NCBI GenBank assembly: GCA_903923395.1
Contig: CAIXXM010000147.1
Coordinates: 1-64,000 of the forward strand
Direction: 5' to 3'
Length of the DNA: 64,000 bases
From: an uncultured Acidobacteriia bacterium
GTDB taxonomy: Bacteria > Acidobacteriota > Terriglobia > Bryobacterales > Bryobacteraceae
Position 1 is the stretch's first letter. Each line of letters starts with the position of its first letter. Shown here piece after piece: positions 947 through 56,047 of the stretch. The position numbers and the translations under genes are program-made. The notes below the pieces were generated by a model. It was given only the letters and a program-made list of their open reading frames with translations, was not told where the DNA came from and searched no databases.

Positions 947-971
947 AAGCCAAGTTTACGACTGTTTCGGG

Positions 972-1748: not shown

Positions 1749-1770
1749 TTGAGTGGTACCAGCGGTGGAC

Positions 1771-3048: not shown

Positions 3049-3102
3049 AGTCTTGCATCATATACCCGCGCGGTGGATGGCAGGCTGGCGGCGGTGTCGG
3101 GA

Positions 3103-3636: not shown

Positions 3637-3691
3637 ACCTACATATCGGCAATTTTTCTGCCAGTTCGAGTTTTATTGAAAACACAGAGGA

Positions 3692-4189
3692 TCAAGGCCC
3701 GTGGCGGGCTGCAGAGTGTCTGGATTTTGCCGGTGCCGGCGGGATCTTGCCGATTGGGTTCGTTTTCAGGCGGGGCGGTTTGGGGGCGCAATGGAGTCTG
3801 GCGAGACCCGGTTTTTCCTGTTTGGGTTCGGTTTGCGCACGGAGCTGCCGTTCGGTTTGGAGGCGGCGGAGTTCGTTGATGGCCTGGAAGAGAAGTTTGG
3901 CGGCGGCGGCGCGTGCGCGGCTGATGCGGCCCATGGAAGGGTTGTCGAATTCTGATTTCTCGGTAACGGTGAAAGCGAGATCGGCTTCGTTTTCCGAACA
4001 GCGGCGGAGGCGCCAGGAGGCGGAAACGATCTCGTCTGCCAGGAGGGTTTCGAGGATGCCGGAGGGCGCAAGTTCAGCGAGGAGGGAATCGCGGAATTCG
4101 CGGTAGGCGTGGTGGGCTCCGTTGGCGACGAATTCACGCGGGAGGTTTTGGAATTGTTTGAGGAGTTCGTTTTCGCGTTGGGAAAGCAT
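3692..4189 (-). CDS. Hypothetical protein, helical
   Basis: A 165-residue protein if translated from the ATG at 4189 (MLSQRENELLKQFQNL). A start 24 bases upstream is possible but adds a proline-rich leader. The middle part (SASWRLRRCSENEADLAFT) resembles small acidobacterial proteins that occur in many copies in Solibacter-like genomes. I recall no characterised member. The region around residues 110-130 (ISRARAAAAKLLFQAINEL) is strongly helical, and the C-terminal 40 residues are basic and proline-rich, probably disordered. It lies between an unknown gene and tRNA-Asp, all read leftwards. Confidence 0.5.
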   Translation of the reverse strand: MLSQRENELLKQFQNLPREFVANGAHHAYREFRDSLLAELAPSGILETLLADEIVSASWRLRRCSENEADLAFTVTEKSEFDNPSMGRISRARAAAAKLLFQAINELRRLQTERQLRAQTEPKQEKPGLARLHCAPKPPRLKTNPIGKIPPAPAKSRHSAARHGP

Positions 4190-4371
4190 GGGTGCCGGCC
4201 GTCTCAGTTCCACTGTAGTGGCGATGGCGGGCTGGAATTGGGCTGTGAGGGTGCAAGTTGTTGATTTTAGGGCGAGAAAAAACTAGGGATTCGTGGACCG
4301 ATGGCCAGGGGCTGTTGCGGTTAAAGCCTGCACTGGAGAGTTTCAAGTAGTAGGGGGGGTACTGCAAGGAA

Positions 4372-4448
<77 letters not shown>

Positions 4449-4516
4449 GCTTTTTATCGGAACCCTTTCAGGATAGCACGGGACGGTTACAGTTGGAAAC
4501 CAGGGGTAAATAAGAA

Positions 4517-4556
4517 AGCCCGGCGGTGGCTCTCCGAAGAGAGTTGCCGCCGGGCT
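4517..4556 (-). terminator. Rho-independent terminator of the TonB-dependent receptor gene
   Basis: A hairpin whose outer arms AGCCCGGCGG and CCGCCGGGCT pair perfectly, with an inner GCTCTC/GAGAGT stem and a CGAA-type loop. On the minus strand it lies 22 bases after the receptor stop codon and is followed by a T-rich stretch. It separates the receptor transcript from tRNA-Asp. Confidence 0.85.
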
Positions 4557-4578
4557 GTTTGCTTTCGCTTCGTTTTGT

Positions 4579-24688: not shown

Positions 24689-27622
24689 TCAGCGGACGTC
24701 ACGGAGTTCCATGATGTCTGAGTAAATGCGGCCGCGGGCGATGACGATGTGGCGGCCATCGGGGGAAAAGGCGGCATCGAAGATCTGGCGGTCCTGAAAG
24801 TTGGTGAGCTGGCGGGCGGGCGAGGAATCGAGACGCTGGAGCCAGAGTTCCCAATGGCCGGTGCGGTCATCCTGGTAGACGAAGGCTTTGCCGTCTGGCG
24901 CCCAGCTGACGGGATTGATGGAGACAGGAAAGCGGAAGAGGATCTTGTTCTCTTCGCGGCTGCGTATGGTTGAGTCGTTGATTCGCAGCGTTGTACTGGA
25001 GGCGGAAATGGCGAGTTTGCCGTCGGGTGAGAGGAGTTCTCCGCGGGCGACGTCGGGCATGGGCCGGGGTGCGCCGCCATCGAGCGAAATCTGCATGCGT
25101 TTGGGTGCGGCCGGATAGTCCGTGAAATAGGTGACCAGGCCGCCGGCGACACATTGCGGCAGGCGGTCCGTGGGTCCCTGTGTGATTTGGCGGCGGGCTG
25201 TGCCATCGGATGAGCTTTGCCAGATGGAGGCTTTGCCTTCACGGGATTCAGCGTAGATAACGATGGGCCGGTCCGGGCAGGCATCGGCTTCCACCTGGAC
25301 GGCGCGCTCCAGTTCAGGCGTGAGAAGGCGGGGTTCCTGGCCGGGTTTTATGGCGGCAAGCCGGGGGAAGGAACCGGTGTAATCCGTGGAGATGATGGTG
25401 CCATCGGTCATCCAGGTGACGGTGTTGTAGGGGTGGCGGATATCTGTTAGTTGCCGGGGGGCTTCCGCGCCGGTGGCATCCAGGAGCCAGAGCTGGCTTT
25501 CCCGTCCGCTGACCGTGGCGACTGCTGTGTCTCCCCGCGCGGAGACGGTGAGTGCGGAATAGGGGTTGAGATCCCGGCTGATACGGCGCGGAATTCCGGA
25601 AAGCGGCAAATGCCAGAGCTGGCCAATGCGGTTATCCGGGTCAGCCGCGATGAGGAGGAAGCCTTGTTTCCCGGGCAGACTTTGGATGCCGGAGACGGAG
25701 AGTTGAGGCAGACGGAATTCCTGGCGGGGGGTGCCGGAGTCGGGATCGACGGAGAAGATGGTGGTCTCGTAAAAGGTTCCGGCGCGGGCGATGTTGCAGT
25801 AAAAAATGCGCTTGCCGGAAGAATCCCAGGTCATGGTTTCGACGGGACGGAGGGCTTCGACGCGGGGGAGTTCGCGGAGGCCGGAGCCATCGGGATTGAG
25901 AACCAGGATGGAAGAACTCTTCGTACCGCGGCGAAAAAATGCTACGCGTGTGCCGTCGCGGTTGATGATGATGCCGCCATCGGCATGGTCCGCCAGCTTG
26001 ACCGGAGTTCCCCCCAGCAATGGCACACGCCAGAGGGCGGGCTTGACCGGGGAGAGCATGGGGTGGAGCGTGTAGTAGATGTTTGCGGAATCCGGCGAGA
26101 CGGCGACGGAATAGATAGCCGCCTGGGCTGGCGGAAGAACTTCGATATTGCTGGAAGCCTGGCTGATGAGGGATTTTACGCGCAGGCCGCGCCCGTTCTT
26201 GGGCAGGATTGTGGTGTAGGCGAGGTAGCGGCCATCCGGAGAGATGACACCGAAACCGGCATCGGCGGGCAGGGAAATCTTGAAGGGTTCCATTTTGCGG
26301 AATGGTTCCGGTGAGAACCAGCCGGTGAAGGGAAGTGTAACTGCGGCGGCAAGAATGATTCCGGCGGCAGCGGCGAGGGGCCAGCGGCGGCGTTTTGCAT
26401 TTTGGGTGACGGCAACCTGACCGGAATCGATGGAGCCCAGGTAGGCTTGCAGCGTGGAGATGACTTCTGGAAAGCCAGTTGGACGGAGCGCCGGGTCTTT
26501 CTGCAGGCACTTTGCGATGAGAGCGGTGATGGCGGGCGGGTGGCCGGTGAGGGGAGCGGGTTGCTGGCCAACCAGAGCGGCGAGGATATCGACGGGGGTT
26601 TCTCCGCTGAATGCCGGCTGGCGGGAGAGGAGTTCATAGAGGACGGCACCGAAGCTGAAGAGATCCGAGCGGGCATCTGTGGTTTTTCCGCGCGCCTGTT
26701 CGGGGGACATGTACTGGACGGTGCCCATGACCATGCCGGGCATGGTGAGGGCGGTGGTGACGGCGTCCTGGTGGGGCAAAACTTCGTGAAGTTTGGCGAG
26801 TCCGAAATCGAGAATTTTGACGTAGCCATCGGGCCGGAGCATCAGGTTTTCCGGCTTGATGTCACGGTGGATGATGCCGGCGGCGTGGGCGGCGGCGAGG
26901 CCTTCCGCGATTTGCAGGGCGATATCGGCGAAGTCGCGGGGCGGCAGGGGCTCCAGGGAGAGTAATTGCCGGAAGGTGCGGCCTTCCACAAGTTCCGAGG
27001 CGATGTAGAAGTTGCCGTCAGACTCCCCGAAATCGTAAATCGTGACGATGTTGGGGTGATTCAGAGCGGAGGCGGCGCGGGCTTCCAGGCGGAAGCGTTT
27101 GATGCCGTCCGGGTTGCGGGAGGACTTGTTGTAGAGGAGCTTGAGGGCGGCACGGCGGCCGAGGTTGAGATCTTCCGCGGCGTAGATTTCGCCCATGCCT
27201 CCGCGTCCGAGGAGTCCGGTGATGCGGTAATTTCCCAGGGTTTGGCCGAGGAGGTTCCGGGTGGGTTGCCGGGAAAGGGCTGAGGCGGCATCGACGACCA
27301 GATCTGAAAGGTCATGGGTTTCCGGCGCGATGTGATGCAGAAGCGACTGGACTTCGTGGAGGATTTCCGGTTCAGTGCAGTGGGCGGAGAGCCAGGAATG
27401 GCGTTCGTGGGCGGGCAGGTCAGAGGCTTCGGCGAACAAGCGTTCGACTTGCAGCCAAAAGTCGGCGCTGGCGGACGGGTTGAGCCGCCGCCAGGCCGTA
27501 TCGCGCGGTTTGGGGCCGGGTGCGATGGGAATAACTCCAGTTGGAGAGTGTACCGAAAACGGGATGTATCCGGCAAACCTGGGTTTAGCTGAGACGTCTG
27601 CGGGCGAGGAAGAGTCCGGCAC
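24689..27622 (-). CDS. Membrane Ser/Thr protein kinase with PD40/TolB-like beta-propeller
   Basis: A 977-residue Hanks-type kinase. The cytoplasmic kinase domain (about 131-400) has the glycine loop GRGGMGEIY, lysine K161, [15 protein letters not shown] and a MSPEQARG activation end, so it is catalytically complete. A short N-terminal leader ([16 protein letters not shown]) is typical of acidobacterial kinases. One membrane helix follows ([15 protein letters not shown]), then about 530 periplasmic residues with repeats such as SPDGRYLAY and [10 protein letters not shown], a TolB-like propeller that would sense a ligand. The GTG at 27622 lies inside the end of the PEP-CTERM gene (38-base overlap) and has no clear ribosome site; no other usual start codon exists before the domain. 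Confidence 0.88.
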
Positions 27623-28109
27623 CGGCGGAGAGAGTCAGGAAGATGGTGGACGGTTCGGGGGTGGGGGCTGTAGTGGAAAGGGTAACCGCGGTGGAGTTGT
27701 GGTTGTTGGGGCTTCCGGTGATGAGGAATTCATTGGAGATGCCGGTATCCGCCGTGCCACCGGAGTCGGTCAGTTCGGAATTCAGGCGTACGGTCAGGCT
27801 CCGGTTGCCGCCATTCTGGGAAAAGACAAATTCCAGATTGCTATTGATGACGCTGACGCTGGAATCACCCACGTTATAGGTGTAGTCGCCGAATGCGGCA
27901 TCCGTGCTGCTGAGGGTAAAAGCGGAGAGTTGGTTGCTGGAAAGGCTGGCATCATAGTTGAACTGACCGGAAACCGTGCCTCCGTCTTCGAGCGTTGCGT
28001 TGTAATACCAGGTCAGGTTGTTCGCTGACGCCGCAGCCTGCATCAGGCAAAGAAGAAACGTGATGGAAGCAGTCCGAGTGACGGTCTTCCAGAAACTGTG
28101 TGCAAACAT
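27585..28109 (-). CDS. Secreted PEP-CTERM protein
   Basis: A 174-residue exported protein from the ATG at 28109, which has a perfect AAGGAG ribosome site six bases upstream. The signal peptide (SITFLLCLMQAAASA) ends before NNLTWYYNATLE. The mature part is Ser/Thr/Asn-rich and beta-like, with segments such as TVSGQFNYDASLSSNQL. The C-terminus has a PEP-CTERM sorting signal: [20 protein letters not shown], then RRRLS. Exosortase would cut at PEP; none is in the window. The gene is divergent from an ECF sigma factor (156-base gap) and overlaps the kinase gene downstream, so all three may act together. Confidence 0.85.
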   Translation of the reverse strand: MFAHSFWKTVTRTASITFLLCLMQAAASANNLTWYYNATLEDGGTVSGQFNYDASLSSNQLSAFTLSSTDAAFGDYTYNVGDSSVSVINSNLEFVFSQNGGNRSLTVRLNSELTDSGGTADTGISNEFLITGSPNNHNSTAVTLSTTAPTPEPSTIFLTLSAGAGLFLARRRLS

Positions 28110-28265
28110 ATAAACTCCTTGAATGTAAGTTCCGCGGTTTTGGTTGGACGGCGCACGTCTTACGGACACGGCCGACTCTTGAGCTGTGCCCCCTCCGGAC
28201 GCGCGCGTCTCCCTGTTTTCAACCGCCTTCAATAGGGAATGCGATGGATCGGCGGAAATCCGATC

Positions 28266-28868
28266 ATGGGAAAAGAAAAAAGTTTGGAGACACCGAATCA
28301 ATCGGAAGTGACGCAACTGCTGCACCGCTGGGGCAGCGGGGATGAGGCTGCGCTGCAGAGCGTTTTGCCTTTGGTGTACCGGGAATTGCATTCGCTGGCA
28401 TCGGCTTACATGCGGCGGGAGCGCCCCGGCCACACGCTGCAGCCAACCGCACTCATTCATGAAGCCTATTTGCGGCTGGCCGGTGACCCGCTGGATCTGA
28501 CCGGGCGGTCTCATTTTGTTGGGATCGCGGCCCGGGCGATGCGGCAGGTGCTGGCCGACCACGCGCGCGGCAAAGGACGGATCAAGCGCGGAGACGGTGC
28601 CGTGCAGGTGGCTCTGGAGGATGATCTCGCGATTTCCGATCAGCCGATTCAGGCGCTGTTCGCCATCCACGAAGCGCTGGATGAGTTGGCGCGCATTGAT
28701 GAGCGGAAGAGCGAAGTGTTGACGCTCCGGTATTTCGGCGGCTGCACTGCGGAGGAGATTGCGGAAATCAAGGGCATCTCCGTGCCGACGGTGATCCGCG
28801 ATCAGCGTTTCGCCATGGCATGGCTGCGGCGGTACTTCACCGCAGAGGGCGATACGGTTGCGGAGTAG
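28266..28868 (+). CDS. ECF-type RNA polymerase sigma factor (acidobacterial type)
   Basis: A 200-residue sigma factor from the ATG at 28266 (MGKEKSLETP). Region 2 contains LLHRWGSGDEAALQSVLPLVYRELH and ALIHEAYLRL; region 4 has EVLTLRYFGGCTAEEIAEIKGISVPTVIRD, a helix-turn-helix for the -35 element. The family (RNA polymerase sigma-70, ECF, with the HTLQPTALIHEAYLRL signature) is common in acidobacteria and planctomycetes, and its members usually sit beside a Ser/Thr kinase instead of a classic anti-sigma factor. Here the partner is probably the kinase at 24.7-27.6 kb across the PEP-CTERM gene. Confidence 0.9.
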   Translation: MGKEKSLETPNQSEVTQLLHRWGSGDEAALQSVLPLVYRELHSLASAYMRRERPGHTLQPTALIHEAYLRLAGDPLDLTGRSHFVGIAARAMRQVLADHARGKGRIKRGDGAVQVALEDDLAISDQPIQALFAIHEALDELARIDERKSEVLTLRYFGGCTAEEIAEIKGISVPTVIRDQRFAMAWLRRYFTAEGDTVAE

Positions 28869-28889
28869 CTGGATATTACAATTCGAGTC

Positions 28890-29549
28890 ATGGCTCGCGG
28901 CAGATTCTTGAGGCTTTATATCGGCAACATGGCGTCCGGCAAGACGCGGCATCTGCTGACGGAAATTGACACCTTGCGGAAGTACGGCAATAAGAAGATT
29001 GCAGTCTTCAAGCCGCGGACGGACACCCGCAGCGGCATGAACACCATCAAGAGCCGCAAGGGGGATGAAGACACGGCGGAGGAGATCAGTCCGAATCTGC
29101 CCCAGGAATTGTGGCCGGTACTGCGCGACAAGGAAGCAGATGCGGGCTGTAAGTTCGAAATCATCGCTTTTGATGAAGTGCAGTTCTTCCCGCGGGACTC
29201 AGGATTCTTTCAGTTAGTGAAAAATCTTCTGGACGAAGGCTATGACGTGATCGCATCCGGTCTGGCTTTTGATTTCCGCGGGGAACCGTTTGGGTCGACG
29301 CCGGATCTGGCGATGCTGGCTGAAGACCGTTGTATGTGGATGACCTCCTATTGCACGAAGTGCGGTTCACGTGCACCTTATCCACAAAGAATCATCAACG
29401 GGGTTCCTGCGCACTATAACAGTCCGCAGGTGCTGGTGGGCGGCGATGAGACTTATGAACCCCGCTGCGATGAGCATTTCGTGCTGCCGGGACGCATACT
29501 GCCGGGCCGCGAAGCCGGTGTGCAGCAGGGCCGGATCTTCACCGAGTAA
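28890..29549 (+). CDS. tdk: Thymidine kinase
   Basis: A 219-residue type II thymidine kinase that phosphorylates thymidine with ATP in the salvage pathway. Visible motifs are the P-loop GNMASGKT (residues 12-19), the Mg-binding DEVQFF near residue 94, and the lasso/zinc region with CTKC near residue 152 and a later CDEH that together would hold zinc. It is 21 bases after the sigma factor stop, but no functional link is apparent; it may simply be an insertion point between two sigma/kinase loci. Confidence 0.93.
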   Translation: MARGRFLRLYIGNMASGKTRHLLTEIDTLRKYGNKKIAVFKPRTDTRSGMNTIKSRKGDEDTAEEISPNLPQELWPVLRDKEADAGCKFEIIAFDEVQFFPRDSGFFQLVKNLLDEGYDVIASGLAFDFRGEPFGSTPDLAMLAEDRCMWMTSYCTKCGSRAPYPQRIINGVPAHYNSPQVLVGGDETYEPRCDEHFVLPGRILPGREAGVQQGRIFTE

Positions 29550-29707
29550 AAAAGTTCAGGAATTGCTGTCCCCCTTTGCCTGTTTTGTGCGCTTGTATCA
29601 GCAGCGGAGAGCAGGCGACGATGACAGCGCGGACAGTATTGCCGGTTTCGTTTCTTTTTGTTGGTCAAAACACCCTTGGTGCGGTTATACTCCCAAGACG
29701 GAGAAGT

Positions 29708-30286
29708 ATGACGCCCAACGACGGCAAGACCCAGGGTGATGTTACGGTGCTGCTGCAGCGCTTCGCGCTGGGTGACCGGGCTGCTCACAATGATCTGCTG
29801 CCCAAGGTCTATCTGGAGCTTCACAAGATCGCCAGCGCGCGGCTCCGCAATGAGCGCAACGGCCACGCACTGCAACCAACAGAACTGGTGAACGAGGCCT
29901 ATCTCAAACTGGAAAGCCAGAAAGATGTTTGCTTCGCGAACCGCGGTGAGTTCTTCGCGCTTTCCTCCATGGTGATGAGGCACTTGCTGACGGATTATGC
30001 CAGAAGCAGGGCAGCGAAGAAGCGCAGTTCGAATGGCATGGTTTCGCTGGATGAAGCGATTGTATTTTCCGATGAGAATCTCGCTCTAACTCTGGAGATC
30101 GATGAGTTACTGGACGGCCTGGCGAAGACGAATGCAAGGTGGGCGCAGGTAGTCGAGATGCGCTTTTTCGGCGGCTTAACAGAAGACGAAATCGCGGAGA
30201 GTATAGGCATGTCAGGCAAGAGCGTGCAGCGCGCCTGGCTGAAGGCGCGCGCCTGGTTCCTGAAGCAAATGAGCAAGACCAACTAA
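29708..30286 (+). CDS. Second ECF-type sigma factor (acidobacterial type)
   Basis: A 192-residue sigma factor from the ATG at 29708 (MTPNDGKTQGDVTVLL), of the same family as the one at 28.3 kb: HALQPTELVNEAYLKL in region 2, and VVEMRFFGGLTEDEIAESIG plus MSGKSVQRAWLKARAWF in region 4. The two proteins are clearly related but not recent copies, since only the motifs match closely. It lies 16 bases before the TPR kinase gene, so the two are almost certainly co-transcribed, in the arrangement where the kinase controls the sigma factor. The 158-base gap upstream presumably carries the promoter; I could not fix its elements. Confidence 0.9.
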   Translation: MTPNDGKTQGDVTVLLQRFALGDRAAHNDLLPKVYLELHKIASARLRNERNGHALQPTELVNEAYLKLESQKDVCFANRGEFFALSSMVMRHLLTDYARSRAAKKRSSNGMVSLDEAIVFSDENLALTLEIDELLDGLAKTNARWAQVVEMRFFGGLTEDEIAESIGMSGKSVQRAWLKARAWFLKQMSKTN

Positions 30287-30302
30287 GCAGCCCGGAAAGC
30301 CG

Positions 30303-33140
30303 ATGGTGCCGATTCCCATGGAGGAAGAACGTTCGGAGCGGATTTGGGAGTTATTCGACCTTCTTCTGGATCAAAAGCCGCTGGAGGAGGTACTGGCTTT
30401 GGAGCCGGATGGTTCGATTCGCCGCGAAGTGCAGGAACTTTGGAAGTTCCACATGCAGGCCGAGTCGAAGGGGTTTCTTGAAGGTGCGGTGCAGTTCGAA
30501 GTGCGGCCCGTCTTTGAGGCAGGCCAGGTTGTTCTGAACCGCTTCGAGATTCTGCGGAGCCTGGGTGCCGGTGGCATGGGTGAAGTCTACCTGGCTCATG
30601 ACCGGCTGACGCAGGATCACGTTGCGCTGAAGACTGTGGCGAGATTGCTGGCGTCATCGAACACGCTTCGCGCGCAGATCATTTCCGAAGTGAAGAATGC
30701 GCAGAGGGTGGCACATCAGAATGTGTGCCGGATCCATGCGTTGTTTGAGGATGGTCCGACGGTTTTCTTCACGATGGAATATGTGGAGGGGCGGTTGCTG
30801 TCTGATGTGCTGGTGGAATCCGGCGGCCGGAAGCTGGGCAGACCGGTGGCGCTCCAATTGGCTGAGGGTTTGCATGCGGCGCACCGGATGGGGGTGATTC
30901 ATGGAGATTTCAAGCCAGGCAACGTAATGTTGACGGAGGGTCCGGAGCCGCGGGCTGTGATTATGGACTTCGGTTTGGCGCGGGCGTTGGAAAACGCTGC
31001 CTCTCCGCAGGATCAAGGGTTATCGGTGCGGGCCGGCACGGTGGATTATATGGCTCCGGAGTTGCAGGGCCGGGTGGCACCGAGTGTTTTGTCAGATATC
31101 TATGCCTTCGGGAAAGTGGCGCGGCAGTTGATGCCGGGTTACCGGATCTGGGAGGACTGCGCGGCTGAGGATCCAAAGCAGAGACCGCAGGATTTAGAGC
31201 GGGTGATTGGGTGGCTGGGGCGCGGGCACACGCGGCGGTATTTGCTGGGTGCCTTGGGTGTGGCCGGTACTGGGGCTTTGAGTTACTATTTGCTCGGCAA
31301 GCCTGCTGCCCAGGAACCACCTATCCTGCAGCGGGGAGCGAGGCTCCTGGTGAACGGATTTGTGAGTGCAGGAGATTCCCGGACTGCTCGAAAGGTTCGC
31401 GCCAGTGTTCTGACGGGGTTGCAACAATCCCCTTTGTTCCGGGCGATTGGCGACGAAGATCTGCCGCCTGCGGTGAAGCGGGAGGGTACAGCGGTTCCAG
31501 TGAATGAGAATACTCTGTTGAGCCTGGCCGAAAAATTGCGTGTTGGCTATTGGGTAAATTCGCAATTCCACGAGGATGGCGGCCGGTATTCCCTGCTGAT
31601 GGAGTTACACAGAGCTGGAACAGAAGCGCCTTTGGCAAAGATTGCACTGCGCGATCTTTCCAGTACGGGCAAGGCTGCGGAGGCTGCGGCGTATTGGCTG
31701 CGGCACAATTTGGCAGGGGAATCCGAGGCCTCGTTGAATGCCAATCCGCCCGGGGTGATGTCGTTCACCACAAAGGTTCCAGAAGCGCTGGATAAGTATT
31801 ACGACGGCATGGCTCATTTCGCGGTCAAGGAGATGGATGAGGCCTTGTTGAAGTTCGAAGAAGCTTTGCGGTTGGACCCGAACTTCGCTCAAGCGCACAT
31901 GATGCGGTCATCTGTGTTGAAGCCAAAGGGTCGCCTGGAGGAAGCTTTCCAGGAAGCACAGCTTGCCGCGGATAACTCCCACGGACTGCCTGAACGGGAA
32001 CGCACGCGGATTGAAGCATTCTATTTTCATAACTGCGAAGATCATGCGCGGATGGTTGCGACCGCGATGCGAAACCGGGAGTATTTTCTGGATGAGCCCC
32101 GTTTTGACCGGATTCTTGCTGTGTATCTTCGTTTATCCGGCAGGGCAGAAGAGGCAGTCGGCTACAACCGCCATGCGTTGACGTTGAGCAACGATGAGCT
32201 TCTCACGACCGAACTGATTTACAGCCTGGTGGAGAGCGGGCAGTATGAGACTGCTTTGAATGAGTATCAGAATCTGGTGAGCAAAGGTATCCGTTATGCC
32301 TACAGCCATCGTCTAGGCGGTTTTGCCTACTTGGGACTGGGCCGGTATCGGGAAGCCCGCGCATGTTTTGAGAAAAACGATGAAATGCCAGACAAACTGC
32401 TCGACACCGCCAGCGCCAGATTCATGCTTGGTGAGACAGAGGCGGTCATTACATCACTCCGAATGTTGACCGGCAGTTTGCAAGGGCCGGACGGTTCCGT
32501 GAACACTGGCGACCGGGGATTGTTGGAAGCTGCACTGTGCGGAGCGCACTTTCTGACCGACAGGCTGGACACGGCGCGGAATCACCTGACAGGAATGATA
32601 GATATCGGGGCGTTTCCTCCGTGTCTACCCATCCTCAGCAGAGCTATGTTTTGGGCCGCGAGACTGCGGGATTCTCAGACTGCTGAAAAAATTTCCCGGG
32701 TTGTGAACTCAATTTCGGATAAGTGGCCAAGCAGCTTTTCCCAAGCCTGCGCACTTTATTGCAAAGCGGTGATGGCCTTGTTGAGCGGTTCGGCCGCGCA
32801 GGCTGAGGGTATGTTACTTCAGGCCGCCGGATTAGAGTTCAATCTTTGGACGTTTTTCGAACTGGCTGAGTTTTATTCCACAGCCGGGAAATATGACATC
32901 GCCCTGGACTACTGGGAGCGCGTGGCAAAGATGGAAGGGTATGTGCTTGCCCGGGCATTTGCTGCAGAGCTTATTCTGTATTGGGGACGCCGGTCCATAG
33001 CAGCGAATGCGGCAGGCCATTATGATGCGGCCACTTATTCGAAGAAGATTCTTGAGCTGTGGGGTAAGAAGAATCCATCCCTGCAAATCGTGAAGGTAGC
33101 CGCGGCCATTCAAGCGCGGAGCAACAATTTCGTGCACTGA
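30303..33140 (+). CDS. Ser/Thr protein kinase (HGD variant) with membrane helix and TPR-rich sensor part
   Basis: A 945-residue protein. Kinase domain about 80-305: glycine loop GAGGMGEVY (88-96), lysine K110, catalytic loop H200-G201-D202-FKPGN, D222-F-G and A251-P-E. The arginine of HRD is glycine, so it is a non-RD kinase, probably not regulated by activation-loop phosphorylation. The part after APE is short. One membrane helix (YLLGALGVAGTGALSYYLLG, about 313-332) leads to a periplasmic region with TPR-like helices from about residue 490 (ALLKFEEALRLDPNFAQAHM; LDKYYDGMAHFAVKEMDEA). It follows the sigma factor by 16 bases and precedes the unknown gene by 19. Confidence 0.88.
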   Translation: MVPIPMEEERSERIWELFDLLLDQKPLEEVLALEPDGSIRREVQELWKFHMQAESKGFLEGAVQFEVRPVFEAGQVVLNRFEILRSLGAGGMGEVYLAHDRLTQDHVALKTVARLLASSNTLRAQIISEVKNAQRVAHQNVCRIHALFEDGPTVFFTMEYVEGRLLSDVLVESGGRKLGRPVALQLAEGLHAAHRMGVIHGDFKPGNVMLTEGPEPRAVIMDFGLARALENAASPQDQGLSVRAGTVDYMAPELQGRVAPSVLSDIYAFGKVARQLMPGYRIWEDCAAEDPKQRPQDLERVIGWLGRGHTRRYLLGALGVAGTGALSYYLLGKPAAQEPPILQRGARLLVNGFVSAGDSRTARKVRASVLTGLQQSPLFRAIGDEDLPPAVKREGTAVPVNENTLLSLAEKLRVGYWVNSQFHEDGGRYSLLMELHRAGTEAPLAKIALRDLSSTGKAAEAAAYWLRHNLAGESEASLNANPPGVMSFTTKVPEALDKYYDGMAHFAVKEMDEALLKFEEALRLDPNFAQAHMMRSSVLKPKGRLEEAFQEAQLAADNSHGLPERERTRIEAFYFHNCEDHARMVATAMRNREYFLDEPRFDRILAVYLRLSGRAEEAVGYNRHALTLSNDELLTTELIYSLVESGQYETALNEYQNLVSKGIRYAYSHRLGGFAYLGLGRYREARACFEKNDEMPDKLLDTASARFMLGETEAVITSLRMLTGSLQGPDGSVNTGDRGLLEAALCGAHFLTDRLDTARNHLTGMIDIGAFPPCLPILSRAMFWAARLRDSQTAEKISRVVNSISDKWPSSFSQACALYCKAVMALLSGSAAQAEGMLLQAAGLEFNLWTFFELAEFYSTAGKYDIALDYWERVAKMEGYVLARAFAAELILYWGRRSIAANAAGHYDAATYSKKILELWGKKNPSLQIVKVAAAIQARSNNFVH

Positions 33141-33159
33141 AGGAAAGAGGAGATCAACG

Positions 33160-33765
33160 ATGAATGATATCTGGTATGTGACGGGTAAGGCTGTTCTGGA
33201 CAAATCTTTGGATCCGGCGGGAACTGCTGGCAAGGGGTTCTATACACCCGTGGTCCGGACAACCTCGGATCAAAATCCTACTACCGGGGTAGCTTTGCCT
33301 GCCCCAATGGTGCACAATACAGGGCAGATTGACGAGGATGCGTTTCCGGTGGTCCGCAAGGCATTGCCTGATTTTCCGGAATTTGCCAAACCAGTCAGCA
33401 TCGGAGCCCTGGCCCGCGTGATTCAGTACTATCAGGATCCAGCCGTTGGTGCGCAATTGAAGACACTGCGGGATGCCATAAACGCTGTCCAACAACCGGG
33501 AGATCCATTGAGTGACCGCTTTCCGGTGCTGTTGGGTGCATGCATTATCGATGCGAGCCTCCGGAATCAGATGGCACAGAATCCGCTGCCGGAAATTACA
33601 AAGGACTTTCAAACCACGTCTGCGGATCACCACTTCATGCAGTTATTGGCAGCAGATAAAGCTGTCAGCGATGCGGCTGATGATTTCGCTGATTCCAACT
33701 GGAATGGTGGTTGCGAGGCGGTTACTTCAGTCTGGGCTGGAAACAGTGTGTTCGCACTCAGGTAA
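33160..33765 (+). CDS. Hypothetical protein of the sigma/kinase locus
   Basis: A 201-residue protein from the ATG at 33160, with a strong AGGAGA ribosome site seven bases upstream and only 19 bases after the kinase stop. I do not recognise it. There is no signal peptide or membrane segment. The N-terminal half is rich in proline and glycine (GTAGKGFYTPVVRTTSDQNP), and the second half is helical with several histidines and aspartates (TTSADHHFMQLLAADKAVSD). Its position between the kinase and the haem-type lipoprotein, whose start overlaps its end, suggests a shared role; it could be a kinase substrate. That is inference. Confidence 0.7.
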   Translation: MNDIWYVTGKAVLDKSLDPAGTAGKGFYTPVVRTTSDQNPTTGVALPAPMVHNTGQIDEDAFPVVRKALPDFPEFAKPVSIGALARVIQYYQDPAVGAQLKTLRDAINAVQQPGDPLSDRFPVLLGACIIDASLRNQMAQNPLPEITKDFQTTSADHHFMQLLAADKAVSDAADDFADSNWNGGCEAVTSVWAGNSVFALR

Positions 33766-35122
33766 AATTGCGGCAGCAGCAGCATTGGCTGCCGCCTTGG
33801 CTTTGACCTCATGCCAATCTCCTGTATCCTACCGCTGGATCCCATCCGGTTTCGGCGGTAGAGAGATTGGTGCTGAAGGATCGTCTGCGTACCCGGGTGC
33901 CAAGGTCGGGGAACTGGAGGCGCTATATGAGACGGTCCAACCCGGGCGAAGCCTGTTGATCAGCAAGGCCGAATGGCTTACTGATGATTCCAAGCCCGCT
34001 TATACGCTGGAGTGGTTGCTCAAGAAGGCGGTCGGGGAAAAGAACGCTGAAGAGTTTTTTCAAGACTGGCTGAAGGATGCCAGGCAGAAAGACCTTGCTC
34101 TCAAGAAAAGACTCGCTGAGAACCAGGAGTTGTGGACAGCTCCCTTTATCACATTGGCTGTGGTAAACCGTTTGGATAATTCGACCTGGAATGGGCGCGT
34201 CTGGAGCGGCGGCGAAGTTCGCTTTGTTCTAAGCTACATCAATCCAAAAGAGAAGACTGCCCCTTTCCATCCTTCTATCATTCTGGAGTTCGCTCTTCGT
34301 CCCATGGACTGGAAAGCATTCAAGGCGGCGAATGCGGAATGGCTCGATCTTTCTAAGCTTGATGGAGAAGCATATAAGCAACGCTTGCGAGTCCTAATAG
34401 AGAAGAATCTGAACCACTCTTACGGTCTCCGGCTTCGAACGAATGCGGAAGCTGCGGGCACTTGGAGGCTCTCGGAATGGAATCTGGCGGCGGACAGCTT
34501 TGTTTCCGGTCCGCTGGAAGATCAGGTGGACGGGCGGTTTGTAACAGCTGCGGCCGGTTCGTTTGAGCACGCGAAGTATTTGAGTTTCTGGTGGGATTTG
34601 GAGGCTGGCAAGACGACCGGCAGTAGGGGTCCGCAAGGAGCGCTGTTTCCCGGCCGTTTGTTGTCGCGGGGTAATTTCGAATATGGGCGGATATTTCCGG
34701 GTACACAGCCCCAGGGTAAGTTCAGCCCGGAGGTGATCAATGCCGTGGCGCTCCGCCAATGCAGCGGATGCCATTCGAATGTGTCGGGTACGAGGTTCCA
34801 GCATATTCGGGTTCAGTTGCTGCCTGAGAAGCGGACTGTACTTTCGGGTTTTTTGACTGGCTGCCCGGAAAAGGATGTTACACCTGAGTGTCTTGCGTTG
34901 GCCAAGGGCGAAGATATTCCCCCTGCGGCGAGGCGCCCTCTCTTGAAGATACTCAACCATGAAGCTGGTATGGTGATATCCAACGGGGGCAATCCCCCTC
35001 GGTACTTTAATGATCTTGCGAGAAGGGCTGGTTTTATGGCTCTGGTAAGTCAGGCGCCGCAGGAGTTCAGTGCAGATTGGGAGAAGTTGATTAGCAGCTT
35101 CGCCACGGACTTCGCTCACTGA
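33746..35122 (+). CDS. Lipoprotein with a c-type haem-binding motif
   Basis: About 458 residues from a GTG at 33746 that overlaps the previous gene by 20 bases. An ATG at 33707 would add 13 residues but has no ribosome site. The N-terminus KIAAAAALAAALALTSC is a lipoprotein signal, with the lipidated cysteine in LTSCQS. The mature part (from about residue 24) is mainly beta/alpha and unlike families I know. At residues 339-343 it has C-S-G-C-H, a standard haem c attachment motif, in the segment VALRQCSGCHSNVSG. It would be an envelope protein that can carry one haem. Further cysteines (TGCPEKDVTPEC) follow. Its 3' end overlaps the Ada-like gene by 7 bases (convergent). Confidence 0.72.
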   Translation: MCSHSGKIAAAAALAAALALTSCQSPVSYRWIPSGFGGREIGAEGSSAYPGAKVGELEALYETVQPGRSLLISKAEWLTDDSKPAYTLEWLLKKAVGEKNAEEFFQDWLKDARQKDLALKKRLAENQELWTAPFITLAVVNRLDNSTWNGRVWSGGEVRFVLSYINPKEKTAPFHPSIILEFALRPMDWKAFKAANAEWLDLSKLDGEAYKQRLRVLIEKNLNHSYGLRLRTNAEAAGTWRLSEWNLAADSFVSGPLEDQVDGRFVTAAAGSFEHAKYLSFWWDLEAGKTTGSRGPQGALFPGRLLSRGNFEYGRIFPGTQPQGKFSPEVINAVALRQCSGCHSNVSGTRFQHIRVQLLPEKRTVLSGFLTGCPEKDVTPECLALAKGEDIPPAARRPLLKILNHEAGMVISNGGNPPRYFNDLARRAGFMALVSQAPQEFSADWEKLISSFATDFAH

Positions 35123-35937
35123 CGCGAGGTCCGTTCCTTATCCAGCAGCACACGCTTCCGGTCCAATCCCCACTTATAACCGCCTAAGTGGCCGGTACCG
35201 CGCAGCACGCGGTGGCAGGGGATGACCAGGGCGGCTACGTTTCTGGCGCAGGCGCTTGCCACAGCCCGGATTGCTTTGGGTTTGCCCATGCCCTCAGCCA
35301 CCTCCTTATAACTGCGGATCTCGCCGTAGGGTATGGATTGCAGATACCGCCAGACGGCCATCTGAAACGCGGTGGCGCGGATGTCCAGGGGTAAAGCCAG
35401 CTTGGGCTGCCTGCCTTGCAGATGCTCTTCGAGAGCCAGGATCCAATCGCGAAAAGGCTGGGGCCAGGGTTGTGGCATGGGAGTCAGCAGACCATTCGGA
35501 TATTCGCGGCGCAGTTGCGCTTCAAGAACAGCGGCATCATCTCCGAACTGCACGAAGCAGAGGCCACGGTCTGTCGCCGCGATCATGAGGAGTCCCAGAG
35601 CCGTTTCCACCGCGACGAAGCTAACAGGAATGTTCTTGCCTCCCGCGCGGTATTCGGCAGGCGTCATACCGAGGCGGGTGTCGATCTTCTCATAGACGCG
35701 GCTCGAGGAGTTATAACCTGCCGCGAAAAGACTGGTGAGGATATCTTCGCCCGCGCGCAGTTCCTGCTTGAGGGTCCGCAGCCGGCAGGCTTCCGCGTAT
35801 TGTTTCGGAGTAACTCCCAACGCCGCTTTGAAACGGCGCTGGAAGTGGTAAGGACTCAAGTGGGCTAACTTGGCCAAATGATCCAGGGAGAGGTCGCCCT
35901 CCAGGTTTGCCTCGATGTATTCCGCAATCTGTTGCAT
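35116..35937 (-). CDS. AraC-type regulator fused to O6-alkylguanine-DNA alkyltransferase (Ada-like)
   Basis: A 273-residue protein with an AraC-type helix-turn-helix at residues 1-100 (DLSLDHLAKLAHLSPYHFQR, then GYNSSSRVYEKIDTRLGM) and an alkyltransferase domain at about 105-265. The active-site motif is P240-C241-H-R-V; the cysteine takes the methyl group from O6-methylguanine irreversibly. The N-terminal zinc domain of E. coli Ada, which repairs phosphotriesters and switches on the regulator, is absent. How this short form is activated is therefore open. It probably repairs alkylation damage and may regulate its own gene. The ATG at 35937 starts MQQIAEYIEANLEGD. Confidence 0.9.
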   Translation of the reverse strand: MQQIAEYIEANLEGDLSLDHLAKLAHLSPYHFQRRFKAALGVTPKQYAEACRLRTLKQELRAGEDILTSLFAAGYNSSSRVYEKIDTRLGMTPAEYRAGGKNIPVSFVAVETALGLLMIAATDRGLCFVQFGDDAAVLEAQLRREYPNGLLTPMPQPWPQPFRDWILALEEHLQGRQPKLALPLDIRATAFQMAVWRYLQSIPYGEIRSYKEVAEGMGKPKAIRAVASACARNVAALVIPCHRVLRGTGHLGGYKWGLDRKRVLLDKERTSRQ

Positions 35938-42989: not shown

Positions 42990-45494
<2,505 letters not shown>

Positions 45495-45518
45495 TTACTT
45501 GCGTTTTGAGGGTGCGGG

Positions 45519-46634
45519 TCAGATGCGCATGGGCATCACGACATAGCGGTACTGTCCGGTCACTTCACCAGCGGGCTGCAGTTCGCCTGCGCTCTTCTGA
45601 TCTTTGAGTGCGAACTGGATCTGATCCTGCGGAACAGCGCGAAGGAAGTCGAGAAGGTATTGCGCGTTGAAACCGATTTCGAGCTCCGGGCCTTCGTACT
45701 GGCTCGGTACGCTCTCTTCGCTTTCTCCTGTTTCGAGAGAAGAGGAGAAGATTTTGACCTCGCCGGTTGCGAACTGGACGCGGATGGCGCGGGAGCGTTC
45801 ATCGGCAAATTGCGCAACGCGTTCGATTGCGGATTTCACTTCGTCCTTCGAAAGAGTGGCGATGTTGGTGTTTTCCTGCGGGAGCACCCGTTCATAGTCC
45901 GGGAAGTTGCCGGTCAGCTTGCGGGTGATCAGCATGCGGGGACCGAATTCGAAGAACAGATGATTGTCATCGCCGGCGAACTTGACGACCGATTCATCCG
46001 TGGAGCCATCAGAGAGCTTGGTGATTTCGCCCATTGCTTTGCGGGGGACCAGGGCGCGATAGGCCACGTTGCTAGGGGCGGTTGTTTCTGCGTCCTGCTG
46101 CGTGTAGGCGAGGCGGTGGCCATCGGTGGCAACCATGGTCAGACCACGGTCGCCGATGAGCAGAAGCGCTCCGTTCAGGGTAAAGCGGCTTTCTTCCATG
46201 GAGATGGCGAACATGGTCCGGGAGATCATTGCCGCCAGGGTCTTCGCGGGAAGAGTTTGAGCGTCTTCCGGCATGGCGGGGAGTTCCGGAAAGCTTTCCC
46301 GGCTCATCCCGGCGATGCGGGTTCGGGAACGGCCACAGGTGAGGCTCGCCCAGTTATTCTCAGCGAACTTTACGGTGATTTCGGCGTCCGGCAGAAGACG
46401 GACGTAATCGAGAAGTTTCTTGGCCGGGATGGTACCCGAGCCTTCTTTGCGGACCTTGGCCGGGCAGGAGGTGCGCAGACCCAGTTCGAGATCCGTTGCT
46501 GTGATGTACAGCCGGTCGCCACGAGCCTCAAGCAAGAGGTTCGAGAGAATCGGGATCGTGGTCTTCTTCTCGACCACACCCTGCGACAGGCTCAGTTCCC
46601 GGACCAGGTCCGCTTTGTTGACGCTGAATTCCAT
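45519..46634 (-). CDS. dnaN: DNA polymerase III beta sliding clamp
   Basis: A 371-residue clamp protein with the three repeated domains typical of beta. It opens MEFSVNKADLVRELSLSQGV, and the last strand MPMRI ends in the usual VMPMR(I/L) signature at the protein C-terminus. It keeps polymerase III on DNA; HolA at 15-16 kb is the subunit that loads it. It lies between dnaA (278-base gap) and gyrB, all read leftwards. Confidence 0.97.
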   Translation of the reverse strand: MEFSVNKADLVRELSLSQGVVEKKTTIPILSNLLLEARGDRLYITATDLELGLRTSCPAKVRKEGSGTIPAKKLLDYVRLLPDAEITVKFAENNWASLTCGRSRTRIAGMSRESFPELPAMPEDAQTLPAKTLAAMISRTMFAISMEESRFTLNGALLLIGDRGLTMVATDGHRLAYTQQDAETTAPSNVAYRALVPRKAMGEITKLSDGSTDESVVKFAGDDNHLFFEFGPRMLITRKLTGNFPDYERVLPQENTNIATLSKDEVKSAIERVAQFADERSRAIRVQFATGEVKIFSSSLETGESEESVPSQYEGPELEIGFNAQYLLDFLRAVPQDQIQFALKDQKSAGELQPAGEVTGQYRYVVMPMRI

Positions 46635-46912
46635 TGTTCTGCCTCTTGCTCCCTGGTTTGACTTGAAGCCACTGGAACGGCTCCACCGCCTATCCGTGTT
46701 CTACGTAAAAGATAAGTACGTAAATCCAACCGTATTGATAGGTGCTGTCAATATGTGGAGAACTCTCTAAATTATACAAAAATTTGGGTGTTGCTGTCAT
46801 TGAACCCTGTTGAGAGGTTCGCTGTTTGGTGCGGAAGACTGGACCCTGTAACGCGTTTTACACAGATTTCCTTAGGCCCGGTTGAGGTGCAGCGGTGGAA
46901 AAGTATGTAAGT
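46635..46912. other. dnaA-dnaN intergenic region, possible origin part
   Basis: A 278-base AT-rich region, one of the two places where oriC is often found. There is one near-consensus DnaA box, TGTGGAGAA at 46754-46762 (one mismatch from TGTGGATAA). Weaker copies are TTATACAAA near 46772 and TTTTACACA at 46856-46864 (two mismatches each). It must also hold the dnaN promoter. With only one good box this is a weak origin candidate. Confidence 0.4.
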
Positions 46913-48241
46913 TCATTGCAATGAGTCGGTTAGGTTGTTGATGATCTTGTTGAGTTCCGGATCAGAAGCCCGCTGGGCGGCGATCTTCTGGATGGAATGG
47001 ATGACCGTAGTGTGGTGTTTTCCACCAAAGGCGCGCCCGATCTCAGGCAGCGACGCGGTTGTGAGTTCTTTCACGAGAAACATGGCGACCTGGCGGGGCT
47101 CAACGATCTCTTTCCGGTTGCTCTTTTCCTTGAGCTGCGACGCCTTGATGTTGAAGCGTTCTGCAACAGCCTTCTGGATCGTGTCGATCGAAATCTTGCG
47201 TTCCTGGCGGTCCAGCAGGTGCTTCAGGACCTGCTCTGCCATCGGTTTGGTGATCTGGGTATTGGTGAGAGCCGAATAGGCCGTCAGCTTGACGAGGGCG
47301 CCTTCCAATTCCCGGACGCTGGTCTTGGTTTTCTGGGCGATGAAGGTGCAGACATCCAGGGGCAGGTGTACGCCTTCCAGTTCGGCCTTCTTCTGCAGGA
47401 TTGCCATCTTGGTTTCGAGATCCGGTGGCTGGATATCGGCCATGAGGCCCCATTCGAAGCGGGAACGGAGGCGGTCCACCAAGCCTGTGATTTCTTTCGG
47501 CGGCAAATCACTTGAGATGACGATTTGCTTCTGCGCGTCATGCAGTTCATTGAACGTATGGAAGAACTCTTCCTGGGTACGTTCCTTGGTGCCGAGGGAT
47601 TGGATGTCATCGATCAGCAGGACATCGGCGGAGCGGTAGCGGGCGCGCAGTTGTGACATCCGCTCATGCTTGATGCCGGTGACGACTTCGTTGGTAAACC
47701 GCTCGCTGGTGGTGTAGATGATGCGCAGTTTTCCCCTGGCGACCAAAGCGCGGCCAATCGCGTGCATCAGGTGGGTTTTTCCCATGCCGGTACCGCCATA
47801 GAGGAACAGCGGGTTGTAGCTGCGGGATGGATTGAGGGCCACCGATTGAGCGGCAGCATGCGCGAACTGGTTGCAGGCTCCGACGACGAAAGAGTCGAAG
47901 GTAAAACGGGGGTTCAGGGACATGGGTGACTCGAAGTCACCTTCGTCGCTGGCCGGGGAGTTCATGCGGGAACCCGGCAATGTGTTGGTTTGGGCGGAGG
48001 TCGAGAATTCGACGCGGTCCACACCGAGACCCAACGAGCGGCTCAAGCGGTTGATCTCGTCAGAGTATTCGGCGCGCAACCATGCAGCGGCAGTATCGTC
48101 GGGGACATGGACCCGAAGGAGTTTGCCTTCAATCCCGGCAAAGGTTGTGCGGGAGACCCAGTTTTCGAAGCTTCCCGAACTCAGTTTGTTCTTGAGCTCT
48201 TCTTTGATTAGATCCCACGGATTTCGACCTTCTAAACTCAC
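46913..48241 (-). CDS. dnaA: Chromosomal replication initiator DnaA
   Basis: A 442-residue initiator from a GTG. Domain I (MSLEGRNPWDLIKEELKNKL) binds helicase loading factors; domain II (about 85-110) is a short linker; domain III has the Walker A GGTGMGKTH at 149-157 and Walker B VLLIDDIQSL; domain IV ends with the DnaA signature in IGRAFGGKHHTTVIHS, which contacts DnaA boxes. It reads leftwards, upstream of dnaN and gyrB. Confidence 0.97.
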   Translation of the reverse strand: MSLEGRNPWDLIKEELKNKLSSGSFENWVSRTTFAGIEGKLLRVHVPDDTAAAWLRAEYSDEINRLSRSLGLGVDRVEFSTSAQTNTLPGSRMNSPASDEGDFESPMSLNPRFTFDSFVVGACNQFAHAAAQSVALNPSRSYNPLFLYGGTGMGKTHLMHAIGRALVARGKLRIIYTTSERFTNEVVTGIKHERMSQLRARYRSADVLLIDDIQSLGTKERTQEEFFHTFNELHDAQKQIVISSDLPPKEITGLVDRLRSRFEWGLMADIQPPDLETKMAILQKKAELEGVHLPLDVCTFIAQKTKTSVRELEGALVKLTAYSALTNTQITKPMAEQVLKHLLDRQERKISIDTIQKAVAERFNIKASQLKEKSNRKEIVEPRQVAMFLVKELTTASLPEIGRAFGGKHHTTVIHSIQKIAAQRASDPELNKIINNLTDSLQ

Positions 48242-48557
48242 AAAGACAATACTTCTCCCCGGGAAGCCACAAGGGCTTCCGAATTTGAGGCGATGAGCCC
48301 CGCTCGACTTATTCGGATGATGCAGGCTGAAGAGGCTGGCGGTACCGGCCCGTTTCTGCTGCGGACAGAACGAAGTCTAACACAGTTTGCCAGCGAAAGA
48401 ACCCATGGAAAGAGGACATGTTGGATCTCAAAACATGAGGTAAAGACTATGTTTTTTGGGGTGCGAAGGTGGACAAGAGTTGGTTTTTGAGGAAGCTTGG
48501 TACGATAGAGTTTGACAGCGAAGGCCTGTTCACGAGAGAATAAAGTTTCCGCTCAAC
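48242..48557. promoter_or_regulatory. dnaA upstream region with a leader hairpin
   Basis: A 316-base region between dnaA (leftward) and tRNA-Gly (rightward), so it holds both promoters. At 48262-48280 a hairpin GGAAGCC-ACAAG-GGCTTCC would form about 20 bases before the dnaA GTG in its mRNA and might affect translation. The only DnaA-box-like site is GGTGGACAA near 48469, with two mismatches. There is a TTGACA at about 48512-48517 before tRNA-Gly but no well-spaced -10. Nothing coding is seen. Confidence 0.45.
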
Positions 48558-54384: not shown

Positions 54385-55161
54385 TTGAGCCGCACAATCG
54401 CAATCACCAACCAAAAAGGCGGAGTGGGTAAAACAACCACCGCCATAAACCTCGCTGCAGCCTTGGCAGCGAACGATATCAGCGTTCTGCTTGTGGATTC
54501 CGACTCCCAGGGAAACTCCACAAGCGGTTTGGGCATACAAAAAGACGCCGATCTCCGAACCATCTACAACATTCTGGTGGATGACATGGAAATCGCCGAT
54601 TGCGTCCACACCACCGAAGTCGATGGCCTCGATATTCTTCCGGCGGACAAGAATCTTATTGGCGTCAACCTGGAACTCGTCGGCATCGAAAACCGCGAAT
54701 CGATTCTCAAGAGGAAGCTCCTCGCGGTCGCGGACAAATACCAATACATCCTGATCGATTGCCCGCCGGCACTCGATTTGCTCACGTTGAACGCCCTCAT
54801 GGCCGCCGATGCCATCCTGGTCCCCATTCAATGTGAGTTCTTTGCACTGGAAGGCGTATCAGAATTGATGGATACGGTTGACCGGGTGCGCGAATCCTTC
54901 GGCCATCCCTTGCAGATCGAAGGCATTCTCCTCACCATGTACGACGAGCGGACTACACTCACCCGCCAGGTTGCCGCCGACCTCCGTGAATTCTTCGGTC
55001 AAGACGTTTTCAAGACAGTCATCCCCAGAAATATCCGCCTCGCCGAAGCTCCCAGCCACGGCCAGCCCATCTTGATGTACGACCCGGGCTCGAAGGGCTC
55101 GGAAGCCTACATCCAGCTCGCAAAGGAGGTCCTGGCCAATGACCAAAAACGATCCGCGTAA
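54385..55161 (+). CDS. parA: Chromosome partitioning ATPase ParA (Soj)
   Basis: A 258-residue ParA ATPase. The deviant Walker A motif KGGVGKTTT is at residues 10-18; the Walker B-type LIDCPPALDLLT and the family segment PIQCEFFALEGVSEL follow. It binds nucleoid DNA in the ATP form and is released by ParB at parS to pull the origins apart. The start is a TTG directly after the parS cluster. Its end overlaps parB by 23 bases. Unlike plasmid ParA it has no DNA-binding N-terminal extension, so it is the chromosomal type. Confidence 0.95.
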   Translation: MSRTIAITNQKGGVGKTTTAINLAAALAANDISVLLVDSDSQGNSTSGLGIQKDADLRTIYNILVDDMEIADCVHTTEVDGLDILPADKNLIGVNLELVGIENRESILKRKLLAVADKYQYILIDCPPALDLLTLNALMAADAILVPIQCEFFALEGVSELMDTVDRVRESFGHPLQIEGILLTMYDERTTLTRQVAADLREFFGQDVFKTVIPRNIRLAEAPSHGQPILMYDPGSKGSEAYIQLAKEVLANDQKRSA

Positions 55162-56047
55162 GGCGTTGGGCAAGGGTCTGAATTCCCTGCTGCCGCCCAG
55201 AACTTCCCCCCAGCCCACACCGGCTGCCGCTGCACCCGCCCTGGCACTTCGTGAAGGCTCTGTCACCTTTCTCCCCATCACGCAGCTCTTTCCGAATCCC
55301 AACCAACCGCGCAGGGAGTTTGATCCCACAGCTATGTTCGAGTTGACGCAATCGGTGGAGCGTGACGGCATCATTCAGCCGATCATCGCCCGCAAGACGG
55401 CGGCCGCGGAGTATCAAATCATCGCCGGCGAGCGGAGATGGCGGGCGGCCAAAGCAGCAGGTCTCGAAGAAGTACCCGTTATCGTACGCACGGTAACAGA
55501 CCAAAAGGTCATTGAACTCGCCATCATCGAGAACATTCAGCGGGAAGATCTCAACCCCATCGAACTCGCGCTGGCCTTCCAGAATATGGCCGAGCAGCTT
55601 TCCCTAACGCATGAACAGATCGGTGAGAAGACGGGGAAAGATCGCGCCACGGTAGCCAATACGATCCGGTTGCTGCAACTGCCGAAGGACATCCAGGACC
55701 TTGTGGCGGCCAAGAAACTCTCACCCGGCCACGCGCGAGCGCTTCTGAAACTGCAGGATGAGAAGCTTCAACGGGAAGTCGCGGAGCAGAGCCTCCGTGA
55801 AGGTTGGTCGGTACGCCAGATCGAAGAATTCACCCGCCCCTCGAAGCTTCCAGTTTCTGTAGAGACCCGCAAGCCGGAGCCTCCCGTGATCGATCCGAAC
55901 GTCAAAGCGGCGATCTCGGAGTTGGAGCGAGCACTGGGGACACGGGTGCGCATCACGGAAAAGGGCAAGCACCGCGGGCAAATCGAAATCGAATACTACT
56001 CGGATGAGGATTTGGACCGCATCTACAACCAGATCGTAGCCGTCTAG
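55139..56047 (+). CDS. parB: Chromosome partitioning protein ParB (Spo0J)
   Basis: A 302-residue CTP-binding clamp. The short N-terminal tail ([15 protein letters not shown]) contacts ParA; the CTPase domain has [11 protein letters not shown] and [15 protein letters not shown]; the helix-turn-helix is [21 protein letters not shown], which reads parS; the C-terminal dimer domain is [24 protein letters not shown]. The linker is rich in proline. ATG at 55139 inside the parA end. It overlaps the MerR gene by 4 bases at the 3' side (convergent). Confidence 0.96.

Follow-up and report, generated by a model that had tools for sequence, protein, structure and literature searches.

An acidobacterial operon that probably encodes a self-activating variant of ECF43 sigma factor/kinase signalling with two undescribed accessory proteins

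We suggest that four adjacent genes in a 64,000-nucleotide stretch of acidobacterial DNA (the window) probably constitute an ECF43/kinase signalling system of a variant, self-activating type, in which two accessory proteins are undescribed. All four lie on the forward strand. They encode an ECF43-type sigma factor of 192 residues (29708..30286), a Hanks-type kinase of 945 residues with a C-terminal TPR part (30303..33140), a protein of 201 residues belonging to a new family (u, 33160..33765) and an exported protein of 458 residues with one CxxCH motif (lip, 33746..35122). We put the chances at about even that the four form a single operon whose ECF43 sigma factor is activated by the kinase and whose other two products are dedicated additional components. 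The genes are spaced as the earlier note described, with gaps of 16 bases between sigma and kinase and 19 between kinase and u, and a 20-base overlap of u and lip, which starts with GTG at 33746. The overlap is 14 bases in genomes G442, G464 and G261, and this usual short overlap suggests coupled translation of u and lip.

At its 3′ end the lip gene is overlapped by 7 bases by a convergent gene, which by eye is Ada/methylguanine-methyltransferase-like (35116-35937). A second ECF43-type sigma gene (28239-28868) is found 840 bases 5′ of the cassette sigma gene, with no kinase gene directly behind it; near it the opposite strand carries ORFs for a Hanks kinase (24689-27622) and a PEP-CTERM protein (27585-28952). 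Genes that look by eye like gyrB, dnaN and dnaA, together with a ParA/ParB-like pair, occupy 42990-48241 and 54385-56047. The window thus probably includes the origin region of the chromosome, at a distance of about 8-20 kb from the cassette.

The arrangement is conserved. Among 257 genomes of the order, the order sigma-kinase-u-lip occurs in seven besides the window (G442, G467, G464, G261, G314, G403 and G423), so the check for recurrence proposed in the earlier note found the four genes together again in related genomes. Two of the seven are interrupted by contig ends. In G314 lip is divided between two contig ends, whose sequences overlap; in G423 the kinase and u genes are at one contig end and lip is at another, with the sigma gene off the contig. 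The total is hence eight cassettes, of which one is cut short on the sigma side. In G403 all four genes are present, u and lip being very divergent. A ninth genome, G345, has sigma-kinase-u only. Because the gene order recurs, a chance arrangement is excluded. In the 257 genomes, lip as the query retrieved relatives with identities of about 25-32%. When the TPR part of the kinase was searched alone, the genomes of the lip search came back together with G403, G423 and G424, and there was no other match at 1e-15; among the kinases of the order, matches at about 1e-28 or better were confined to those of the eight cassettes (five candidates scored per genome in both cases). Single-sequence searches of a thin phylum sample, genome contigs and plasmids returned no relatives. 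This had first suggested orphans, a view abandoned when the dense search of the order found relatives.

Across the cassettes, the pairwise identities of the four proteins are correlated (r 0.78-0.91; in Mantel tests 0-8 permutations of 720-5040 were as good). This co-variation is explained equally well by shared descent as a unit and by contact between the proteins. The cassette is patchy within genera: in genus g1 it was found only in G000 and G261. The window kinase is nearer to that of G467, which belongs to another genus (45% identity), than to that of G261 (37%). The distribution and the kinase identities together point to transfer or much loss. The surroundings of the G464 cassette (L042, 1427-3100 and 2-1138) include a weak match to M12B-type peptidases and an ORF that by eye resembles tyrosine recombinases; the latter could bear on cassette transfer. 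Two genes follow lip in G423 (L043, 2664-4839): an uncharacterised 563-residue ORF that overlaps it, and the gene of a papain-like cysteine protease (PF12385, 4.8e-10).

The sigma factor exceeds the cut-offs of the Sigma70_ECF/Sig-70_X6 models, with 136.5 bits (cut-off 21.1; 1.3e-39) for PF07638 and 174.2 bits (cut-off 126.15) for TIGR02999, a model that we take to correspond to ECF43. As in the ECF43 group, a Hanks-type kinase gene adjoins the sigma gene. At the position of the DAED motif the window protein has QPTE, and all aligned sigma factors have Q/E-P/A-T-A/E there, with Thr58 (codon 29879..29881, forward strand) invariant in 9/9. Two pairs of an ECF43 sigma factor and a Hanks kinase have been described, EcfP/PknT of Vibrio parahaemolyticus and EcfK/PknS of Xanthomonas citri (PMC8999054, PMC13147305). 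In ECF43 factors DAED is replaced by STTA or QTTA and its negative charge is missing, and EcfP is reported to be inactive until phosphorylated (PMC8999054). In both EcfP and EcfK the threonine equivalent to Thr58 is phosphorylated by the neighbouring kinase (PMC8999054, PMC13147305); EcfK carries QATE at this position (PMC13147305). However, EcfK remains functional as the T51A variant, and a second site, T106, is also important (PMC13147305). Hence, Thr58 may not be the sole phosphorylation site here.

The kinase domain comprises residues 81-286 (PF00069, 2.5e-37), followed by matches to TPR families in the C-terminal part. The catalytic Lys, Asp and DFG are all present (VALK, HGD, DFG). The catalytic loop, VIHGDFKPGNV (30894..30926, forward strand), lacks the RD arginine, which bears out the earlier assignment as a non-RD kinase of the HGD type. 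The kinases of the six close cassettes have HGD, those of G403 and G423 HCD, making all eight non-RD, whereas the outlying kinases of G424 and G345 have HRD. In G467 an Asn stands for the usual Lys of the loop (HGDFNPSN). Over its full length the window kinase is 37-45% identical to the five closest cassette kinases and 31% identical to those of G403 and G423. A Gly/Ala-rich segment at residues ~311-332 (31233..31298, forward strand) is likely the single membrane anchor. It is only weakly hydrophobic (best mean hydropathy 1.35 over 17 residues), which weighs against the claim that the TPR part is outside the membrane; in its favour, a twin arginine before this stretch is invariant in all eight cassette kinases. 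The RR and the weakly hydrophobic stretch behind it would resemble a Tat-type anchor, and we consider that the TPR part likely lies outside the membrane.

The exported component is lip, of which we found members in the eight cassettes and in four other loci. It contains one CxxCH, the CSGCH that had been noticed at residues 339-343 (34760..34774, forward strand), a putative haem c attachment site. The motif proved to be conserved, with C339, C342 and H343 invariant in 11/11 aligned members. About 15 further residues are invariant in this 11-row alignment, including W108, R142, D144, E157, E181, W199, R231, N233, W240 and R427. Export signals are present by eye in most members. The designation of lip as a lipoprotein holds only in part: read by eye, export is conserved, but the lipobox is not, since the N-terminal LTSC of the window and a plausible lipobox in G467 are replaced by ordinary signal peptides in G464, G261 and G403.

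Like mono-haem c-type cytochromes, lip is exported and has one CxxCH; unlike them, it has no cytochrome c domain match above cut-off. The window protein has no such match at all, and one relative has a match to PF00034 below the cut-off (E=0.0078). The best PDB sequence match of the lip profile is cytochrome c552, on the CxxCH (E=0.2). We suggest that lip is probably an exported protein holding a haem, of the c-type mono-haem kind. The CxxCH might instead be a redox-active or metal-binding cysteine pair, with lip sensing thiol oxidation or a metal. We consider this unlikely: besides the missing cytochrome fold match, it could draw on the lack of a conserved second axial ligand in the lip alignment (the FxHI position is H or Q), but the motif is an exact CxxCH with its histidine invariant in all 11 exported proteins, and cytochrome c assembly proteins (PF01578) score above cut-off in 6/6 cassette genomes searched. 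ResB (PF05140) was looked for and not found, so haem assembly by system II is unlikely.

The N-terminal part of lip, about 300 residues with conserved NRxDL and GExRFVYG, found no match among solved structures. A structure model of lip (mean pLDDT 69, pTM 0.73) gave a best Foldseek E of 0.96 and a best VIA Z of 3.2, below match level. This null shows little at the present alignment depth, and we base no claim of a new fold on the model.

The earlier note had proposed that the two novel genes should not occur widely away from the sigma/kinase pair. For lip this is partly contradicted: four relatives are found without sigma or kinase neighbours, three in the order (G342, G481 and G334) and one in another class (G197), while no u turned up away from the pair. 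Three of these four are longer at the N-terminus and two match the choice-of-anchor X domain. Like CxxCH proteins with this domain (NF041940), the proteins of L047, L048 and L092 have the lip core and the CxxCH; unlike lip, they have a longer N-terminal domain and lack sigma/kinase neighbours. Weak matches in L050-L054, without CxxCH and alpha-amylase-like by eye, were rejected, as were those in G271 and G105, the latter a protein with two CxxCH. The genome of the window contains 16 strong Sigma70_ECF matches but one u and one lip match, and in the stretches around its other sigma loci no CxxCH gene is directly beside a sigma-kinase pair. In G424 (L088, 5145-10268) a sigma gene and an HRD kinase gene with TPR are accompanied by genes for a 143-residue protein and a 336-residue exported protein with one CxxCH. 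Profile comparison relates neither of these to u or lip; the locus is possibly a parallel version of the same layout.

A bipartite promoter-like element, TGTCC-N18-CGCTTGT (29567..29596, forward strand), is located 5′ of the sigma gene. Its core, TGTCC-N18-CGCT, is exact 5′ of the sigma gene in 6/6 close cassettes. When every exact combination of a 5-mer with a 4-mer at spacers of 10-25 was examined in the six upstream regions, it was the only word pair common to all six, while in 200 dinucleotide shuffles the best pair was common to three of six at most. The element is absent 5′ of the sigma genes of G403, G424 and G345, and of eight other ECF43 sigma genes of the window genome recovered by script. 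As in canonical ECF sigma/anti-sigma systems, the sigma factor probably transcribes its own operon from a bipartite element of the -35/-10 type.

Scans of six genomes with TGTCC-N18-CGCTT gave counts not above those of a reversed-pattern control. The regulon is therefore small or inseparable from noise, and most single matches are chance. We kept as candidate targets those intergenic sites that have a gene start close behind, a selection made after the fact. The element stands 5′ of the divergent gene beside the G442 cassette and of the gene after lip in G464, 22 and 36 bases, respectively, before the possible start. The two encoded exported proteins are 47% identical over ~170 residues and did not turn up in the other six cassette genomes. 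In the window genome three sites lie between genes and shortly before a gene; PEP-CTERM proteins are encoded behind two of them. In G345 (L086, 4095-11281) the sigma gene, the HRD kinase gene and the u relative are followed by an opposite-strand ORF and then by a Dyp-type peroxidase ORF (match 1.1e-16, below the curated cut-off), which is truncated by the contig end. About 55 bases before it is TGTCC-N18-CGCTTAT with a T-rich spacer. The G442/G464 exported proteins, the PEP-CTERM proteins and the Dyp-type peroxidase are candidate targets of the sigma factor. We do not claim a one-mismatch element (48391-48418) 5′ of the apparent dnaA, as the window has 8 such sites against 5.5 expected, and we disregarded a copy lying inside the kinase gene of G403 (L089, 3810-3837), where the sequence is coding.

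If the sigma factor drives its own operon, then lip, and perhaps u, are its products. This raises a different explanation, namely that lip is the output and not the sensor, an exported haem redox protein, for example, made on demand, while the TPR part senses something else. The place of lip in an operon behind the sigma-type element, the wider lip family away from kinase and sigma factor, and the other candidate targets, which are exported proteins and one haem peroxidase, would all fit such a role. Yet in the eight cassettes lip stays beside one kinase subtype and co-varies with it, and the unrelated exported CxxCH protein in the same place in G424 suggests that a CxxCH protein serves the kinase. 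We regard the output role as possible but doubtful; the best reading is that lip is a partner or sensor of the kinase. That a haem reports a redox or gas signal is a guess.

The remaining component, u, has neither an export signal nor a membrane segment. Members of the family share the start M-x-D-x-W-x3-G and a W at the C-terminus. The profile search of the order gave matches in the cassettes and, weakly, in G345 only, where the protein aligns with the u profile over its whole length (probability 94.7, E 6e-8). In 9/9 loci, including the window, the u gene is directly behind an ECF43-linked or cassette kinase gene. Neither for u nor for lip is there a Pfam, NCBIfam or PDB match above cut-off, in line with their description as proteins of no known family. 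The structure model of u has a mean pLDDT of 52, and its structural matches are meaningless. The N-terminus of the G403 u (L089, 3046-3690), with a DPEFR-like motif, weakly resembles NH_RiPP_Os17 (E 0.004, below cut-off); u as an NHLP-clan/RiPP precursor was rejected, with 1/8 members matching this model at 17.1 bits against a cut-off of 40.

We read the role of u from its constant gene position. Known anti-sigma families (Pfam, NCBIfam) have no match in the operon. Being of no known family, u could itself be an anti-sigma factor or a kinase inhibitor, in which case the main switch would be sequestration and not phosphorylation. A protein without an export signal, encoded in the operon behind the kinase gene at every locus, would suit that function. 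It is nevertheless improbable: the u gene follows the kinase and not the sigma gene, most ECF43 pairs lack u, which is known from no more than 9 loci, as the single u of the window genome illustrates, and the missing DAED charge and the reported inactivity of unphosphorylated EcfP argue for phosphorylation as the switch.

Hence, for the kinase-activated system we propose the following sequence of events. The exported CxxCH protein would meet a periplasmic signal, most likely redox or peroxide, and act on the TPR part of the kinase. The activated, membrane-anchored non-RD kinase would then phosphorylate Thr58 of the sigma factor, as the conservation of this residue and the analogy with EcfP/PknT and EcfK/PknS suggest. 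By the same analogy, the phosphate would supply a negative charge, needed for RNA polymerase binding, that ECF43 factors otherwise do not have. From TGTCC-N18-CGCT the sigma factor would direct transcription of its own operon and of a small number of further genes, most of them encoding exported proteins. In the cytoplasm u may tune the kinase or the sigma factor.

The cassette is similar to EcfP/PknT and EcfK/PknS, in which the genes of the sigma factor and a transmembrane Hanks-type kinase are also adjacent and the Thr of QxT[A/E] replaces DAED. The periplasmic TPR part, predicted here, is shared with PknS (PMC13147305). However, unlike in both pairs, the cassette kinase is non-RD (HGD/HCD), and fixed u and lip genes and the shared element are added. 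In contrast to canonical ECF sigma/anti-sigma systems, the cassette has a kinase instead of a recognisable anti-sigma factor. The locus is thus not undescribed as a whole, its sigma/kinase core being known; the novelty lies in the constant presence of u and lip and in the shared promoter element. Our literature search found no paper joining ECF sigma factors, Thr kinases and Acidobacteria.

Last but not least, ECF43/kinase pairs abound in the window genome, yet to our knowledge the signals of such kinases are almost unknown. For one kinase subtype the cassette supplies a likely dedicated partner outside the cytoplasm, and with the conserved promoter element and the candidate targets it makes signal, switch and output each testable. 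It also defines two protein families, u and lip, that have no Pfam or NCBIfam model. Our most far-reaching proposal, which we put forward only tentatively, is that the exported lip binds a single haem, has a new fold and controls the activity of a non-RD Hanks kinase, whose substrate is an ECF43 sigma factor; u would then be a cytoplasmic partner of ECF43 kinases of a new kind. If this is true, haem or redox sensing would be coupled directly to sigma-factor phosphorylation.
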